Positions 9,312 to 17,703 of a stretch of 31,591 nucleotides of DNA are shown in pieces (position 1 is the first letter of the stretch; every line of letters begins with the position of its first letter). A model generated the notes under the pieces. The model searched no databases. It saw nothing but the letters and a program-made list of their open reading frames with translations, and had not been told where the DNA came from. A program made the position numbers and the translations under genes. Source of the stretch: a virus; IMG/VR virus record IMGVR_UViG_3300030060_006403, positions 1 through 31,591 of that record; one strand, written 5' to 3'.

Positions 9312-10488
9312 TTGCAGACTCCATTAAGATTGCTTTTTTACCAGTATAATCTTCCCATCTTTGAACGATCACATCACAATATTTAGGATCTAATTCCATA
9401 CCAAAACACTTACGGTTTGTTTTTTCACAAGCAATTAAAGTTGATCCTGATCCTAAAAAAAGATCTACAACTAAATTATTTGGATCACTTGAATTTTTTA
9501 TCGCTCTTTCAACCAACTCAACTGGTTTGGTTGTTGGATGTAATTTACTTTTTAAAGGTTTTTTAAAATCCCAAACATCAGATTGTTTTCTGTCACTTAA
9601 TTTTTTTATTCTATGTGAATCATACCATCCATACCATATTGGTTCATATTTTGTATGATAATCTTTTCTTGATATAACATGTCTGTCTTTATTCCATATA
9701 ATCGTTGAGCTCCAATGAAAATTATTTTTTTTCATTTCAAGCATTGCATTACCCCACTCTTGAGCAGACATGACTAAATAAACTATTGTTCCCTTCATAG
9801 ATAACTTTGCAAGTGAGTTAAATGATTTATTTAAAAATATTTGAAAATCATCTGTGCTCATATTATCGTTTAATATTTGATTGTTTTTATATCTTGGATG
9901 TTTATCTTTTCCATAGGCAACATTCCACGGTGGATCAGTAAAGATCATGTGTGCTTTTTGATCTAATAATAATTGATCTATATTTTCAAAGTCTGTGCAA
10001 TCACCACATAAAAGTTTATGATTACCTAAAATCCAAATATCACCAAGTTTTGTTCTTGGTGTTACTTTTTCTGGAATCTCATCTTCATCAGTTAATCCAA
10101 CAACATCAGGAGTTTCAAATTGTAACTCTTCATTAGTAAAACCCCAGTCAATTAAAGATTCAACATCAAAGTAATTACCAAGTGCATCCCAATCCCATTC
10201 ACCAGTATTTTTATTGAGTCTTACGTTCAACTCTTTCTCTTGGTCAATCGTTAGATCTAATTCAACACAAGGTATCTTTTCAATGTTTAGATCTTTAGCA
10301 ATTTTTAACCTTTGATGTCCTCCGATAACAATATTTTCTCTATCTTTGTTTTTATTAATGATAACTGGATCAACTAAACCAAAACGTTTTATAGAATCTT
10401 TGAGGTTTTTATATTGCTCTTTAGTCAATTGACGTGGATTATATTCTGCAAAGACTAAATCATTTATATTATGTTGTTTTATATCCAT
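9304..10488 (-). CDS. ParB-like domain fused to N4/N6-type DNA methyltransferase (394 aa)
   Basis: Residues 1-110 form a ParB/Srx-like domain (YNPRQL near 16; GGHQRLKIAKDL near 56). Residues 150-394 form an amino-methyltransferase with DPPW at 185-188 and the SAM-binding motif DLFLGSGST near 342-350. The catalytic motif precedes the SAM motif, which is the beta-class order. The likely product is N6-methyladenine or N4-methylcytosine. No restriction enzyme gene is visible, so it is a solitary methylase. Its place just upstream of the terminase suggests DNA marking for packaging or escape from host restriction. No good ribosome site precedes the ATG. Confidence 0.9.
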   Translation of the reverse strand: MDIKQHNINDLVFAEYNPRQLTKEQYKNLKDSIKRFGLVDPVIINKNKDRENIVIGGHQRLKIAKDLNIEKIPCVELDLTIDQEKELNVRLNKNTGEWDWDALGNYFDVESLIDWGFTNEELQFETPDVVGLTDEDEIPEKVTPRTKLGDIWILGNHKLLCGDCTDFENIDQLLLDQKAHMIFTDPPWNVAYGKDKHPRYKNNQILNDNMSTDDFQIFLNKSFNSLAKLSMKGTIVYLVMSAQEWGNAMLEMKKNNFHWSSTIIWNKDRHVISRKDYHTKYEPIWYGWYDSHRIKKLSDRKQSDVWDFKKPLKSKLHPTTKPVELVERAIKNSSDPNNLVVDLFLGSGSTLIACEKTNRKCFGMELDPKYCDVIVQRWEDYTGKKAILMESASA

Positions 10489-10524
10489 ATTAAAAAAAAG
10501 TGATAAGTGTTTAAACCGAGTTTA

Positions 10525-10767
10525 TTACTTTGTGTTTTTTAACTCATCACCATAAATATCAAGAAGTTCATCAAATATTTGTGTTGAGTTTTTATCAGGA
10601 GTTATTTCTTCTTTTAAAGAAACAATTTTGTTTTTATTGTATATAGAATAAACATCAGATTTTTTTGTATGTGGTTTTAAATAAATAGATTTTATTTTCT
10701 TTGCCATCGATTTATCACAATTATACTTTTGTTGGATTTGTTTAACTGAAAGTTTATTTATATTCAT
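10525..10767 (-). CDS. Small HTH-like protein (80 aa)
   Basis: The N-terminal 30 residues (LSVKQIQQKYNCDKSMAKKI) look like a helix-turn-helix. The rest is charged with no known domain. I place the start at the ATG at 10767, with AAGGGA upstream; a further in-frame ATG lies five codons earlier without a ribosome site. It lies between the other small HTH gene and the methyltransferase, at the boundary of early and packaging genes. It could be a regulator or a packaging accessory. Family unknown. Confidence 0.6.
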   Translation of the reverse strand: MNINKLSVKQIQQKYNCDKSMAKKIKSIYLKPHTKKSDVYSIYNKNKIVSLKEEITPDKNSTQIFDELLDIYGDELKNTK

Positions 10768-10873: not shown

Positions 10874-11035
10874 CTAAAAATTAAGATTAATGCCTTTTTT
10901 CTTTATCGTTTGCAATCTTTTATATACTGCTGATTCACTAATTTTTTCTTCTTTTGCTATTTGTTTAACTGATTTTTTCTTTATCACGTGTTTTCTTATT
11001 GCTTCAAATTGTTTATGGGTTAGATTGTTTTTCAT
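10874..11035 (-). CDS. Tiny sigma-70 region 4-like HTH protein (53 aa)
   Basis: This short gene overlaps the resolvase-like stop as ATGA. The whole protein is one DNA-binding unit: LTHKQFEAIRKH, then SVKQIAKEEKISESAVYKRL. That arrangement, a first helix followed by an IAKEEKIS-SAVYKRL helix-turn-helix, resembles region 4 of sigma-70 factors and LuxR-type HTH. It is very basic. Its position just ahead of the packaging genes suggests a transcription activator for the late genes, but this is inference. Translation coupling and the clean HTH make the gene itself likely. Confidence 0.7.
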   Translation of the reverse strand: MKNNLTHKQFEAIRKHVIKKKSVKQIAKEEKISESAVYKRLQTIKKKGINLNF

Positions 11036-11331
11036 TTTATATACTCCAAATATTCAATGTAAGAGATGAGGATCAAAGTGGGTTTTCTGTCTTGCCTGAT
11101 AACAACTCCATCTATTTTATCAGGATCTAGATCTAAAAATTTTGGAAGAGATTTTCTTATTTTACATTGAAGTCTTTTATCATTGATCATTATATCACAT
11201 TCAGAGGATTGACCAAGACTTCTACCATCTGATGCATATGCACGTACAGATTTTTCTATGCCTTTTTCTTTTGCAATATTAACGCATTCACGTTCAAAAT
11301 TATTACCTTTAGTTTTTGATTTACTTGCCAT
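11032..11331 (-). CDS. Small PD-(D/E)XK nuclease, Holliday junction resolvase-like (99 aa)
   Basis: The order GNNFERE (E13), a Ser/Gly-rich stretch, CDI (D46), QCK (Q55-K57), then VVIRQDRKPTLILIS matches the compact PD-(D/E)XK fold of archaeal Hjc-like resolvases and related phage proteins. Such enzymes cut branched DNA. In phages they clear replication or recombination junctions before packaging. There is no clear ribosome site before ATG; a hairpin lies just upstream. The ERF annealing gene in the same block supports a recombination role. The exact substrate is not shown. Confidence 0.7.
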   Translation of the reverse strand: MASKSKTKGNNFERECVNIAKEKGIEKSVRAYASDGRSLGQSSECDIMINDKRLQCKIRKSLPKFLDLDPDKIDGVVIRQDRKPTLILISYIEYLEYIK

Positions 11332-11395: not shown

Positions 11396-11617
11396 CTATC
11401 TATTCATGGCGTAATCATCAAGCCAGTCTTTTTTGTATCGAATAGTGTTCTTTTTATCTTTTGCATAATTAAGAGATCCACACAATCTTGCTCTATGAAT
11501 TGTTTTAGTAGATACTCTTAAATAAATAGATGCATCCTTTGTATCAAACCAAAATGGTAATTTTCCATCTATTTTTTTTTCTAATTGGTCTAATCTTTCT
11601 TTTAATGCCAAATCCAT
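11396..11617 (-). CDS. Excisionase-like HTH_17 DNA-binding protein (73 aa)
   Basis: After a short coiled N-terminus (LKERLDQLEKKIDG) the protein carries a winged HTH of the excisionase/MerR-like kind: WFDTKDASIYLRVSTKTI near 23-40, then a wing and TIRYKKDWLDDY. The family covers phage excisionases (Xis) and small regulators. As the phage has an integrase and attP, it is a fair candidate for the recombination directionality factor, although it lies far from int in the early leftward block. The ATG overlaps the previous stop as TAATG. Confidence 0.7.
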   Translation of the reverse strand: MDLALKERLDQLEKKIDGKLPFWFDTKDASIYLRVSTKTIHRARLCGSLNYAKDKKNTIRYKKDWLDDYAMNR

Positions 11618-11856
11618 TATAACTGCTCCATTTCATCAATTGGTATTATTCGCAAGGTAGGGGTGTTTTTTTTCTTCATAGTTTCACATTTATCTGCCAA
11701 ATGCTTGGAAAGATAAAATGAATGTGGATATTTAAAAGAACCATCTTTTTGTTTATAAGTTATGCTAACAAAAACGCCTTGATCAGTTATTATATTTTGA
11801 TCAATTCCGACAGCGTTAAGTTTCCAAATAGGTTCTTTGATCTTTACTGTTTGCAT
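11617..11856 (-). CDS. Hypothetical early protein (79 aa)
   Basis: No family is recognised. The chain reads as a small beta-rich domain (IWKLNAVGIDQNIITDQ, then GVFVSITYKQKDGSFKYPH) followed by a helix and a short strand. I chose the ATG at 11856 because GGAGG lies nine bases before it. An in-frame ATG at 11877 would add seven residues but overlaps that ribosome site. It is part of a dense early block in which each gene overlaps the next. Confidence 0.6.
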   Translation of the reverse strand: MQTVKIKEPIWKLNAVGIDQNIITDQGVFVSITYKQKDGSFKYPHSFYLSKHLADKCETMKKKNTPTLRIIPIDEMEQL

Positions 11857-13512: not shown

Positions 13513-13748
13513 GGTAACTCTATTTCTTCCTCACTTGTTTTGATTTCAGGTTCAGGATCAACTAATTCACGTTCAATGATCAAACCAATATAGGTATCGT
13601 TTCCATCTTTAGTTTTATTATTCCATCCTGCTACCTTGTAAACTACTTTTTTTCCATCAGGAGTTAATTCATCTACCTCCATCTTTCCTCTCCAGTCAGG
13701 GTGTTTATCTTGGTCTTTGTATTGGTTTTTAAAAATATTTATTCTCAT
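13506..13748 (-). CDS. Small protein with SSB-like acidic tail (80 aa)
   Basis: The body (YKVAGWNNKTKDGNDTYIGL) is a short beta-rich domain without a firm family match. It slightly recalls DUF736-like proteins. The C-terminus is acidic and ends in ELPF (SEEEIELPF), the kind of tip that bacterial SSB uses to recruit partners. It lies between the ERF annealing protein and the replication genes and starts as TAATG on the ERF stop. A role as a single-strand DNA partner is inferred from the tail and the neighbours. Confidence 0.6.
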   Translation of the reverse strand: MRINIFKNQYKDQDKHPDWRGKMEVDELTPDGKKVVYKVAGWNNKTKDGNDTYIGLIIERELVDPEPEIKTSEEEIELPF

Positions 13749-14251
13749 TAGTAAGCATCTCCCATTAGATCTGTGTTATTATATTTTACTGTACCATTAC
13801 TCACAATTTTTGGTTGTGGTGTAAATTGTTTCTGTGGTTGTTTTTTTGGTGCAGATTCTTGATCTAATGCACCATCTGTATCTTCTCCACTTGCAAGATT
13901 TAAAAGTGCCATTATACTATATCTTCTGTAATAAGTGATTGCAGTACCTGCACTTTGATATAGATTTATTCGTTTACTAGATTCAATATTAGTCTGCATT
14001 TTATTACTTATAAATTGACCTGATTCGTGGCACAACAATGTTTCAATACCAATCATTATATCATCTCCAACTGGTAATTGAATGATCACCAGTTTATGTT
14101 TTTCTAATATTGGTTTTACTTTAATTAAAAGACCATCTAAAGAGGTGTATTCATACATCCCTTTTGAATCTTTATCCATTACCTTTGGTAGGTCAGATTG
14201 TACTTTTAAAAGTGCAGGAATCAATTGATCCAACTTTTCTGATGTTTTCAT
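13748..14251 (-). CDS. erf: ERF-family single-strand annealing protein (167 aa)
   Basis: The sequence fits the ERF superfamily along its length: YEYTSLDGLLIKVKPILEKH near 33-52, CHESGQF near 74, then QSAGTAITYYRRYSIMALL near 99-117 and an acidic EDTDGALD. ERF proteins anneal complementary single strands and drive phage recombination and circularisation. The C-terminus is a Gln/Lys/Pro-rich tail. AAGGGAG precedes ATG. Together with the resolvase-like gene it forms the phage recombination set; no exonuclease partner is visible. Confidence 0.9.
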   Translation of the reverse strand: MKTSEKLDQLIPALLKVQSDLPKVMDKDSKGMYEYTSLDGLLIKVKPILEKHKLVIIQLPVGDDIMIGIETLLCHESGQFISNKMQTNIESSKRINLYQSAGTAITYYRRYSIMALLNLASGEDTDGALDQESAPKKQPQKQFTPQPKIVSNGTVKYNNTDLMGDAY

Positions 14252-15259: not shown

Positions 15260-15354
15260 TGATGATCATGCAGGGTTGATGAGCGAAGAAAGGAAAAGAC
15301 TTGTACCCTGCACATCATCAGTTTTTTATTGATTATTAGTATTTTTTCGCTCAT
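15260..15354 (-). promoter_or_regulatory. Interleaved inverted repeats in the early leader, possible pseudoknot
   Basis: TGATGATCATGCAGGGT (15260-15276) pairs with ACCCTGCACATCATCA (15305-15320) in an 8 + 7 base-pair stem with a small internal loop. ATGAGCGAA (15279-15287), inside that loop, pairs with TTCGCTCAT (15346-15354) outside it. The order is therefore b-a-b'-a' in the leftward RNA: a pseudoknot or two exclusive hairpins. The structure ends about 10 bases before the ribosome site of the first early gene. A DNA operator is the alternative. Confidence 0.5.
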
Positions 15355-15409
15355 TATAATGAAGTTTAATATTAATTATAATTAATTCCAAGAATAAAAA
15401 TTACTAATA

Positions 15410-15437
15410 ATTAACTATAAAGTTAATATAATTAACT
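15410..15437. promoter_or_regulatory. ATTAACT half-sites, candidate repressor operator
   Basis: ATTAACT (15410-15416), ATAA spacer, AGTTAAT (15421-15427) form a perfect palindrome. A third ATTAACT lies at 15431-15437, exactly 21 bases (two helical turns) after the first. The set lies 41 bases upstream of the repressor-like gene. Such spacing is usual for dimer-binding operators. The region is AT-rich, so chance is possible. Confidence 0.4.
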
Positions 15438-15478
15438 AGATAATTGTGTTGTAAATTATTAAATTCTTTCACTTAATT

Positions 15479-16297
15479 ATGTTTGTGAATACAAGACTTG
15501 CAGTAATCAAAATGATCGAAGAATCTAGACTGCCCATCAGTCGTGTGGCAGACCTCGCAGGAATGACACCTAATTCAATATTCAGGTTGAAACGTGATCC
15601 AAACTCCAAATGTAGAAGTTATAATGTGGAGAAAATAGCAGACATTTGTGGTTTTAAAGTGAAATGGGATCAGCGAAAACCTGATGAATGTAATGTGTTT
15701 AAACTTGACGACGAACCTATTGAGGAGATTCAAAACATGAATGGATTTACTAATGAAATTGAAAAACTTGCTGATCGTATTGCAGATTATAAAATGCAAA
15801 ACAGAATGAAAGATCAAGAGATTGAAGAACTTAAAGAAAAGTTAAATACAATTAGCATTGATGATGAAACAAAAAAATTAGATTTTGCAAAAAACTTTCA
15901 AAGTGAATGTAAAATGGAGGTTCGTTTAAATGGTTTAACTCTTGAAAACAGACTTTTAGACATTCAAGGTAAAGATGCATGTTCAAAATATTTAGGATAT
16001 TCAGAAAATGAACTAACCGAACTGTGGAGACCTAATGAATGGTTTAAATTTGGTGAACATCCAATAGATCAACTTTTTCATAAAGAATCTCCAACCAAAT
16101 TAGAATCTGCTAAATTATTTGTTTCAGGTGCTTTATCATTAGCAAAAACTGTTTTTATGTCAAATGAAACCTTTGCATTACCTATTATATATAAGCACAA
16201 AGATGGATCAAAAGTTTTAACGACTTTATATTTTGATTTTAATATTTCAAAAAAGATTGCAACGATTAAAACTAGGTTTCATAATGGAACTCATTAA
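15479..16297 (+). CDS. HTH-coiled coil-PAS-like protein in the repressor position (272 aa)
   Basis: Residues 1-62 look like a lambda repressor-type helix-turn-helix (MIEESRLPISRVADLAGMTP, then SIFRLKRDP). Residues 88-125 are a likely coiled coil. Residues 145-272 read as a PAS domain: ENRLLDIQGKDACSKYLGYS, then ELWRPNEWFKFG, and a final PIIYKHKDGSKVLTTLYFDF. No S24/LexA-type Ser-Lys peptidase or cleavage site is present. The gene diverges from the early block and is next to attP and int, the classic place for the lysogeny repressor. Induction by a ligand or cell signal instead of SOS cleavage is inferred. There is no ribosome site before ATG, so the message may be leaderless. DNA-binding role is likely; the PAS call is moderate. 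Confidence 0.75.
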   Translation: MFVNTRLAVIKMIEESRLPISRVADLAGMTPNSIFRLKRDPNSKCRSYNVEKIADICGFKVKWDQRKPDECNVFKLDDEPIEEIQNMNGFTNEIEKLADRIADYKMQNRMKDQEIEELKEKLNTISIDDETKKLDFAKNFQSECKMEVRLNGLTLENRLLDIQGKDACSKYLGYSENELTELWRPNEWFKFGEHPIDQLFHKESPTKLESAKLFVSGALSLAKTVFMSNETFALPIIYKHKDGSKVLTTLYFDFNISKKIATIKTRFHNGTH

Positions 16298-16298
16298 G

Positions 16299-16322
16299 TC
16301 CCCATGTTTTGTTCCCCATGTT
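16299..16322. repeat. Direct repeat arm near attP, left copy
   Basis: A 24-base sequence made of TCCCCATGTTTTG followed by a second TCCCCATGTT occurs here and again at 16512-16535. Each copy is itself a double of the core CCCCATGTT. The two copies flank the tRNA-Leu half at 80 and 67 bases. This is the layout of integrase arm-type binding sites. Confidence 0.8.
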
Positions 16323-16331
16323 TGACCCATT

Positions 16332-16357
16332 ATGTCCTTTGATGTCCTAGGATGTCC
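16332..16357. repeat. Three ATGTCC boxes at 10-base spacing
   Basis: ATGTCC occurs at 16332, 16342 and 16352, so on one face of the helix. It lies between the left arm repeat and the attP core. Phased short direct repeats in an att region usually bind an excisionase or an accessory factor. Confidence 0.5.
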
Positions 16358-16402
16358 CTCTGAAAATATATAAAATTAAATTTGTTGAATATAGTGTTTT
16401 TA

Positions 16403-16444
16403 GATTTTAAGTCCACAGTGTCTACCAATTCCACCACCCGGGCA
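16403..16444 (-). other. attP: attP core: 5' half of a tRNA-Leu(UAA)
   Basis: On the minus strand the bases from GCCCGGGTGGTGGAATTGG through GTAGACACTGTGGACTTAAAATC match the 5' half of a bacterial tRNA-Leu: acceptor strand, D-arm, anticodon stem and a loop with anticodon TAA. The match stops two bases into the 3' side of the anticodon stem. No variable arm, T-arm or 3' end follows, so this is not a working tRNA gene. It lies beside the integrase between repeat arms. The crossover probably falls in the anticodon loop of the host gene. Confidence 0.8.
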
Positions 16445-16511
16445 TCAAATCTTTTGTCGTCAATCTTTTTTTCAAAAAACTAAATAATTAAAAAATGTTA
16501 AAATTCTTTGT

Positions 16512-16535
16512 TCCCCATGTTTTGTTCCCCATGTT
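16512..16535. repeat. Direct repeat arm near attP, right copy
   Basis: The second copy of the 24-base double CCCCATGTT repeat described at 16299-16322, in the same orientation. It ends one base before the stop codon of the integrase gene (16537). Probably an integrase arm site. Confidence 0.8.
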
Positions 16536-16536
16536 G

Positions 16537-17703
16537 TCAAATTTGAGGATAAAAACCTGATTTTTTAACACTTGGAAAATCTGTTTCTAATTGGGATATA
16601 TGAAATTTAGTATAACCATCAGTTGTATTAGTATTGGTATGACCTAATAATCTTGACACTAAATGAATATCTCCAGTTTCAAAATATTTTCGCACTGCAA
16701 ATGTATCTCTTAAATTATGAAAATGCAATTTACTTTCTTTTCCTAAAACTTTTTTTACTGCTTGTTTAAATCCTCTTGATATTTTACTACGATCATTAAA
16801 CTTAACAATATGGTATTTTTTATCTTTTGCTTTCTTTTGAAAATCAATTAAAAAATCTTTTTGTTCTTGATTTATAATAAACTCTCTGAATCTTTGTTTT
16901 CTTTTTGTTTCTTCCATTGGTATTTTCATCAAATAGTTTTTATTCAATGGAATAATATTAGCATAAAAAGGTTCTTTTAATCTACATCCAGTTTCAACAT
17001 AAAATTTTATAACTTGTTTTAAATAGTTTGCATCATCACGAGTTTTTTGAAAACCACTAAATTGATTAAAATCACATTGTAATATTTTATCTAATACTGG
17101 TTCTGAAAAATAAGTTGGTTCTTTATTGGGTTTAGTTGGTAGTTTTATATTTGGTTTATTATTAAGATCTAAATTCCAATCTTTAACTTTTTCAGCGTAA
17201 ATGAAATCAACTAAATATTTAAAATATCTGAGACTGTTATATGTAAAGTATTCTGAATCTTTTTTGTTTACATACTTTCTAAATTGTAAAATATCTTTTT
17301 GTGAAATAGTTTCAAAATTTTTATTTTTACCAAAACAATCTAAAAGTCTTCCTAATATAATTTTATCTCCTCGAATAGTTTCTTCAGATTGATTTTCTGT
17401 TATTTTATAATCAATATAATAATCAATTGCATTTTTTAAAGTGATCGTTCTTACTTTACTTACTTTATCCTCATTGATCCATTCAAAATATGTTTTATCA
17501 ATAATGCCATTTAACAAATTTTTTCTTTGTTGATGCACCATCAATCCTCTTTTCTCTGCTTGATGTTTTTGTTGTATAGTTGATAATGACATATCTATTT
17601 CAAGAGGAATCAAAAAATCTTTTTCAATTCCATCCTCAACAGAACGTAAACGATAATAATATTTTTGACGTTTAAAAATCCAATGGTTTATTCTTCTTAC
17701 CAC
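16537..17703 (-). CDS. int: Tyrosine recombinase integrase (388 aa)
   Basis: The catalytic set is complete: R241 (ETGCRLKEP), H329 and R332 (FHNLRDTF), H355 (LLGHTNTNTT) and the nucleophile Y364 (GYTKF). The core-binding helical domain spans about 85-190, and a basic, aromatic N-terminus (HWIFKRQKYYYRLR) fits an arm-binding domain. The enzyme joins attP to a host tRNA-Leu gene and, with a directionality factor, excises it. The start is GTG at 17703 with no clear ribosome site; later starts would cut the arm domain. It faces the repressor-like gene across attP. Confidence 0.92.
   Translation of the reverse strand: MVRRINHWIFKRQKYYYRLRSVEDGIEKDFLIPLEIDMSLSTIQQKHQAEKRGLMVHQQRKNLLNGIIDKTYFEWINEDKVSKVRTITLKNAIDYYIDYKITENQSEETIRGDKIILGRLLDCFGKNKNFETISQKDILQFRKYVNKKDSEYFTYNSLRYFKYLVDFIYAEKVKDWNLDLNNKPNIKLPTKPNKEPTYFSEPVLDKILQCDFNQFSGFQKTRDDANYLKQVIKFYVETGCRLKEPFYANIIPLNKNYLMKIPMEETKRKQRFREFIINQEQKDFLIDFQKKAKDKKYHIVKFNDRSKISRGFKQAVKKVLGKESKLHFHNLRDTFAVRKYFETGDIHLVSRLLGHTNTNTTDGYTKFHISQLETDFPSVKKSGFYPQI

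Follow-up and report, generated by a model that had tools for sequence, protein, structure and literature searches.

The nearest known phage regulator with a PAS domain is VqmA of Vibrio phage VP882, a phage-encoded regulator of the lysis-lysogeny decision that joins a PAS domain to a helix-turn-helix (HTH) and acts without DNA damage. VqmA binds DPO and activates qtip, the product of which inactivates CI (PMC8284805, PMC12802170). TF-smORF modules provide other phage-encoded, DNA-damage-independent routes to induction (PMC10432266). Searches of PubMed Central, which leaves out most subscription journals, found no paper evidently describing a phage repressor that itself carries a PAS domain. 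Here we analysed a window of 31,591 nucleotides (positions 1 to 31,591 of the virus record IMGVR_UViG_3300030060_006403 in IMG/VR), in which one gene had been predicted by eye to encode a repressor of this kind.

The gene was confirmed exactly as an open reading frame running from ATG to TAA and encoding 272 amino acids (Table 1). It is the sole long gene on the plus strand of the 31.6-kb record, all remaining long genes being leftward, and it lies between the leftward early operon and the attP/integrase block (16299-17703). Scans of IMG/VR revealed the same regulator in L002 (91% identity) and L003 (72%), as well as two fragments at contig ends, an N-terminal part in L004 and a C-terminal part in L007. 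The early operon adjoins the regulator gene in L002 and L003, and in L004 as far as the contig end. Searches of bacterial genomes with the regulator or the integrase found no relative, and at the sensitivity applied the PAS domain had none in the phage (INPHARED) and plasmid collections. A scan for the same locus in further phages, based on the ERF protein, added only L039, whose contig ends before the regulator. Two candidates from a pattern scan for more relatives, L016 and L020, were false positives. PADLOC gave no informative match, and membership of a defence system was rejected.

Table 1. Positions of the regulator, its predicted domains and neighbouring features in the window.
Feature	Position	Strand	Basis
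HTH/coiled-coil/PAS regulator gene, putative lysogeny repressor	15479..16297	+	Open reading frame; identity of relatives
N-terminal helix-turn-helix region, residues 1-64	15479..15670	+	Consistent matches below threshold
Coiled coil, residues 89-126	15743..15856	+	Heptad test
Predicted PAS-fold domain, residues about 140-268	15896..16282	+	AF2 model; PDB/BFVD fold search; hhalign with null
AT-rich intergenic region, presumed promoter/operator site of the regulator	15322..15478	.	Partial conservation across four phages
Long stem-loop, 5' leader of the early operon	15260..15320	-	Folding, four phages
First gene of the divergent leftward early operon, 208 aa	14621..15247	-	
ERF annealing protein, early operon	13748-14251	leftward	
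HTH_17 protein, 73 aa, early operon	11396-11617	leftward	
PDDEXK nuclease-like protein, early operon	11032-11331	leftward	
Repeat pair left of attP (TCCCCATGTTTTGTTCCCCATGTT), presumed integrase arm-type site	16299..16322	.	
attP core, 5' half of a tRNA-Leu(TAA) gene	16395..16447	-	Matches tRNA-Leu genes
Repeat pair right of attP, same sequence as on the left	16512..16535	.	
Tyrosine integrase, 388 aa	16537..17703	-	Pfam Phage_integrase 1.5e-13; PHROG integrase 2e-22

The N-terminal HTH of the original prediction was upheld by weak matches to HTH and phage repressor families, all of them below curated cut-offs. HTH_23 was matched with E = 6e-4 by the window protein and 2.6e-5 at best, the Cro/C1-type HTH_26 with E of 0.05-0.06, and PHROG 2328, a phage 'transcriptional repressor' family, by all four members (best E 0.005). 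This region is 82-93% conserved across the four phages. The coiled coil also held, as the hydrophobicity of its a and d heptad positions was equalled by only 3 of 5,000 shuffles. The original prediction had further noted that the protein lacks the S24/LexA peptidase, consistent with a Pfam search that returned no match to this family at E <= 10. No second, CI-like repressor was identified among the scanned open reading frames, a subset of those in the window.

The proposed PAS domain at the C-terminus was supported by structure prediction, fold search and profile comparison with controls, though searches with single sequences were silent (no PAS match in Pfam, even at E <= 10, in NCBIfam or among PDB sequences). 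By sequence, the domain is detectable in profile-profile comparison only, and no curated Pfam cut-off for PAS is reached. AlphaFold2 (AF2), given an alignment of the C-terminal domain from six members (A6), produced a model of medium confidence (pLDDT 71, pTM 0.62); a run on three full-length sequences reached a pLDDT of 40 only and was not used for reading the fold. The modelled elements (E12-23, E26-35, H37-44, H48-55, H67-71, H77-92, E104-111, E117-127 and E132-140; E, strand, H, helix) follow the PAS order of two strands, four helices and three strands, with the five-stranded sheet expected of this fold. In a Foldseek search of the PDB, each of the 50 matches listed was a PAS, LOV or haem-PAS structure or another protein containing PAS (probability 0.99-1.00, E from 3.3e-4, TM-score 0.40-0.53 by query length). 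A fold search of BFVD gave one strong match, A0A516M3Q0 (E 2.5e-11, TM 0.77), and weaker ones that include sensor histidine kinases; Cellulophaga phi19:1 was matched as well. A0A516M3Q0 is a viral protein of 245 amino acids with 24% identity to the C-terminal domain, possibly a further member.

For the profile comparison we used a 14-member PAS profile, comprising eight E. coli stretches (Aer, two from DosP, three from DgcE, PdeR and AtoS) and six plasmid or phage sequences retrieved with the PAS domain of Aer as query. The C-terminal alignment scored 32.4 against this profile in hhalign, whereas 400 column shuffles reached at most 19.1 and the reversed alignment 12.6; these significances are empirical for this comparison and not database-wide. 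Unrelated HTH and integrase alignments scored 10.9 and 15.5, respectively. Known PAS domains, each left out in turn, scored 44 to 142, with the less certain DgcE 426-552 at 30.0, and VqmA of phage VP882, a proven PAS receptor, scored 29.3. Taken by branch, the window group alone gave 31.8 and the L010 group, described below, 22.6. The predicted structure and the profile comparison support a PAS fold for the C-terminus of the regulator.

A second group of phages carries the same domain in a different setting. L010 was found by scanning with the integrase, to which its own is 86% identical, and it has the same tRNA-Leu attP. Downstream of the integrase, the product of its gene at 9793-10578 combines an HTH and a coiled-coil-like stretch with a C-terminal domain that is a homologue of the one in the window protein (31% identity over 160 amino acids, BLASTP 5e-20). 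L013 has a near copy of this gene (93% in the domain). The HTHs differ between the groups: that of L010 is CI-like (Phage_CI_repr, E 4.3e-4, 21 bits and so just below the 22-bit cut-off), while the window group has the weak HTH_23, HTH_26 and phage-repressor matches. Because the same C-terminal domain stands behind a different, CI-like HTH beside the integrase and attP, the regulator is likely to bind DNA.

Comparison of related phages, one of the checks proposed with the original prediction, bears out the classic repressor place in part. L002, L003 and, as far as its contig reaches, L004 keep the locus, and in the window, L002 and L003 the gene is divergent from the early operon and near the integrase and attachment site. 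In L010 and L013 the PAS gene is instead convergent with the early genes, and in L010 there is no promoter region in common. The classic place is therefore not universal, and the linkage common to both groups is to the integrase and attP (seen in L010), not to the early promoter. Between attP and the PAS gene, L010 also has a long inverted-repeat-like stretch (9577-9652) that matches no Rfam family at gathering score. The attP core block is identical in L002, L003 and L010. The paired repeats that flank the tRNA half in attP co-vary between phages, and L007 has a different tRNA half and an integrase of 46% identity.

The AT-rich region upstream of the regulator gene is 157 bp long and separates it from the early-operon leader. 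Imperfect palindromes lie around TTAACTAGTTAA in this AT-rich background, in which the palindrome search established no operator motif. The first early gene varies among the relatives, without conservation in L002 and L004, and so is not an obligate partner of the regulator; an obligate antirepressor encoded by the divergent neighbour was accordingly rejected. The leader stem-loop is kept in four related phages though the first gene behind it differs, with folding z-scores of -3.3, -2.2, -4.2 and -3.9 and compensatory changes in the stem (GCAGGGU/ACCCUGC, GCAGAAC/GUUCUGC and GCAGAG/CUCUGC). It matches no Rfam family. Further along the operon, the HTH_17 protein is a possible excisionase or directionality factor; L010 encodes a similar-looking protein of 72 amino acids at 11631-11849.

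The residues of the PAS domain that are invariant in both phage groups in alignment A6 (protein numbering, the alignment position plus 128) include G164, K165, C168, G173, Y174, W183, W188, H194, P195, K202, S204, Y238, H240, K241 and G243, several of which could line a pocket. LOV photoreceptors are marked by the motif GxNCRFLQ with its photoactive cysteine, haem PAS domains of the DosP and FixL type by a proximal histidine on helix F, and FAD-binding PAS domains of the Aer type by an Asn on helix C, Arg-His-Pro-Asp on helix E and a Trp on strand H. GxNCRFLQ is absent from the 272-residue translation, and no histidine is conserved along helix F (residues about 205-220) in A6. The sequence EHPID resembles the RHPD of Aer, and the counterparts of the Asn and Trp are, by eye, K165 and L247. 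Apart from this partial resemblance to Aer, no ligand or cofactor signature of the flavin, haem or LOV kind was recognisable in the domain. LOV-type light sensing and a classical haem PAS were rejected, and neither light nor classical haem sensing is supported, since the LOV cysteine and the haem histidine are missing. Light, one of the induction cues suggested in the original prediction, is accordingly disfavoured.

The domain order, the predicted PAS fold, the lack of a peptidase match and the linkage to integrase and attP are supported by the analyses above. Around them we infer dimerisation, repression, the position of the operator, a ligand and a cue. We suggest that the protein probably controls lysogeny as a homodimer, most likely by repressing the early operon independently of SOS, and that its DNA binding would be set by the PAS domain. 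A repressor role is suggested by the position of the gene, its HTH and the CI-like HTH of L010. With its subunits joined by the coiled coil, the dimer would use the N-terminal HTH to bind putative operators in the AT-rich stretch preceding the regulator gene and would hold down the leftward early promoter. The PAS domain would set the DNA-binding state of the dimer through a bound small molecule, a cofactor or a partner. A change in this domain may then alter the dimer and release it from DNA, so that induction would follow this route and not RecA-stimulated self-cleavage. Because a predicted PAS fold replaces the usual self-cutting domain triggered by DNA damage, these prophages may wake on a chemical or redox cue. 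More tentatively, they may form a phage family in which the master repressor has its own PAS sensor, a module paired with different HTHs in different phages, and is released from DNA directly by a cue inside the cell, such as a metabolite or a redox signal, and not by DNA damage.

The main alternative, which we consider rather unlikely, is that the PAS domain of the repressor binds no ligand and only dimerises or docks a partner, with induction depending on an antirepressor or host factor. PAS domains can serve in dimerisation, and without its PAS domain VqmA is reduced to DNA-binding domains that are inactive and monomeric (PMC8284805). Phages are known to encode small antirepressors by which CI is inactivated (PMC10432266), and the want of a recognisable flavin, haem or LOV signature fits such a role. 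Yet the invariant W183, W188, H194, Y238, H240 and C168 seem excessive for a bare dimer interface, and the variable first early gene argues against docking of an obligate partner encoded next to the regulator. It is less probable again that the protein is an accessory regulator, either a lysis activator or a regulator of integration and excision, and not the master repressor. VqmA of VP882 offers the precedent, as the known phage PAS regulator activates an antirepressor and does not repress (PMC8284805, PMC12802170), and the gene lies beside int/attP in both groups but is divergent from the early genes in one and convergent with them in the other. VP882, however, has both VqmA and CI (PMC12802170), whereas the scanned open reading frames of the window include no separate CI-like repressor, and the HTH of L010 resembles those of CI repressors. 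That the C-terminus is a phage-specific alpha/beta domain merely resembling PAS is very improbable, since the fold search and the shuffled-column profile test, which are partly independent, both yield PAS, despite the silent Pfam, NCBIfam and PDB sequence searches, the medium model confidence and a TM-score of about 0.45.

The preferred reading, in which the repressor has a PAS domain built in, would tie induction directly to the state of the cell and could explain the timing of prophage exit in habitats poor in DNA-damaging agents. Ligand, DNA binding and induction could all be addressed together in one small protein.

Compared with VqmA, which has an N-terminal PAS domain and a C-terminal LuxR-type HTH, the domain order of the window protein is reversed and includes a coiled coil. 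The two have no specific sequence relationship, as their hhalign score of 12.0 is within the shuffle range. Bacterial LOV-HTH and PAS-HTH one-component regulators likewise couple a PAS domain to an HTH, but the window protein lacks the LOV cysteine motif, has its HTH at the N-terminus and is carried by a phage. Lambda-type CI resembles it in being divergent from the early operon, with an N-terminal HTH and a C-terminal effector or dimerisation half. In CI that half contains the S24/LexA peptidase, whereas the window protein has a predicted PAS domain, no S24 match and no visible route to RecA-stimulated cleavage. In TF-smORF modules a separate transcription factor switches on a small antirepressor, whereas here the candidate repressor itself carries a sensor-type domain (PMC10432266). 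In VP882, CI is separate from VqmA; in the window, the predicted PAS domain sits in the protein at the repressor position.
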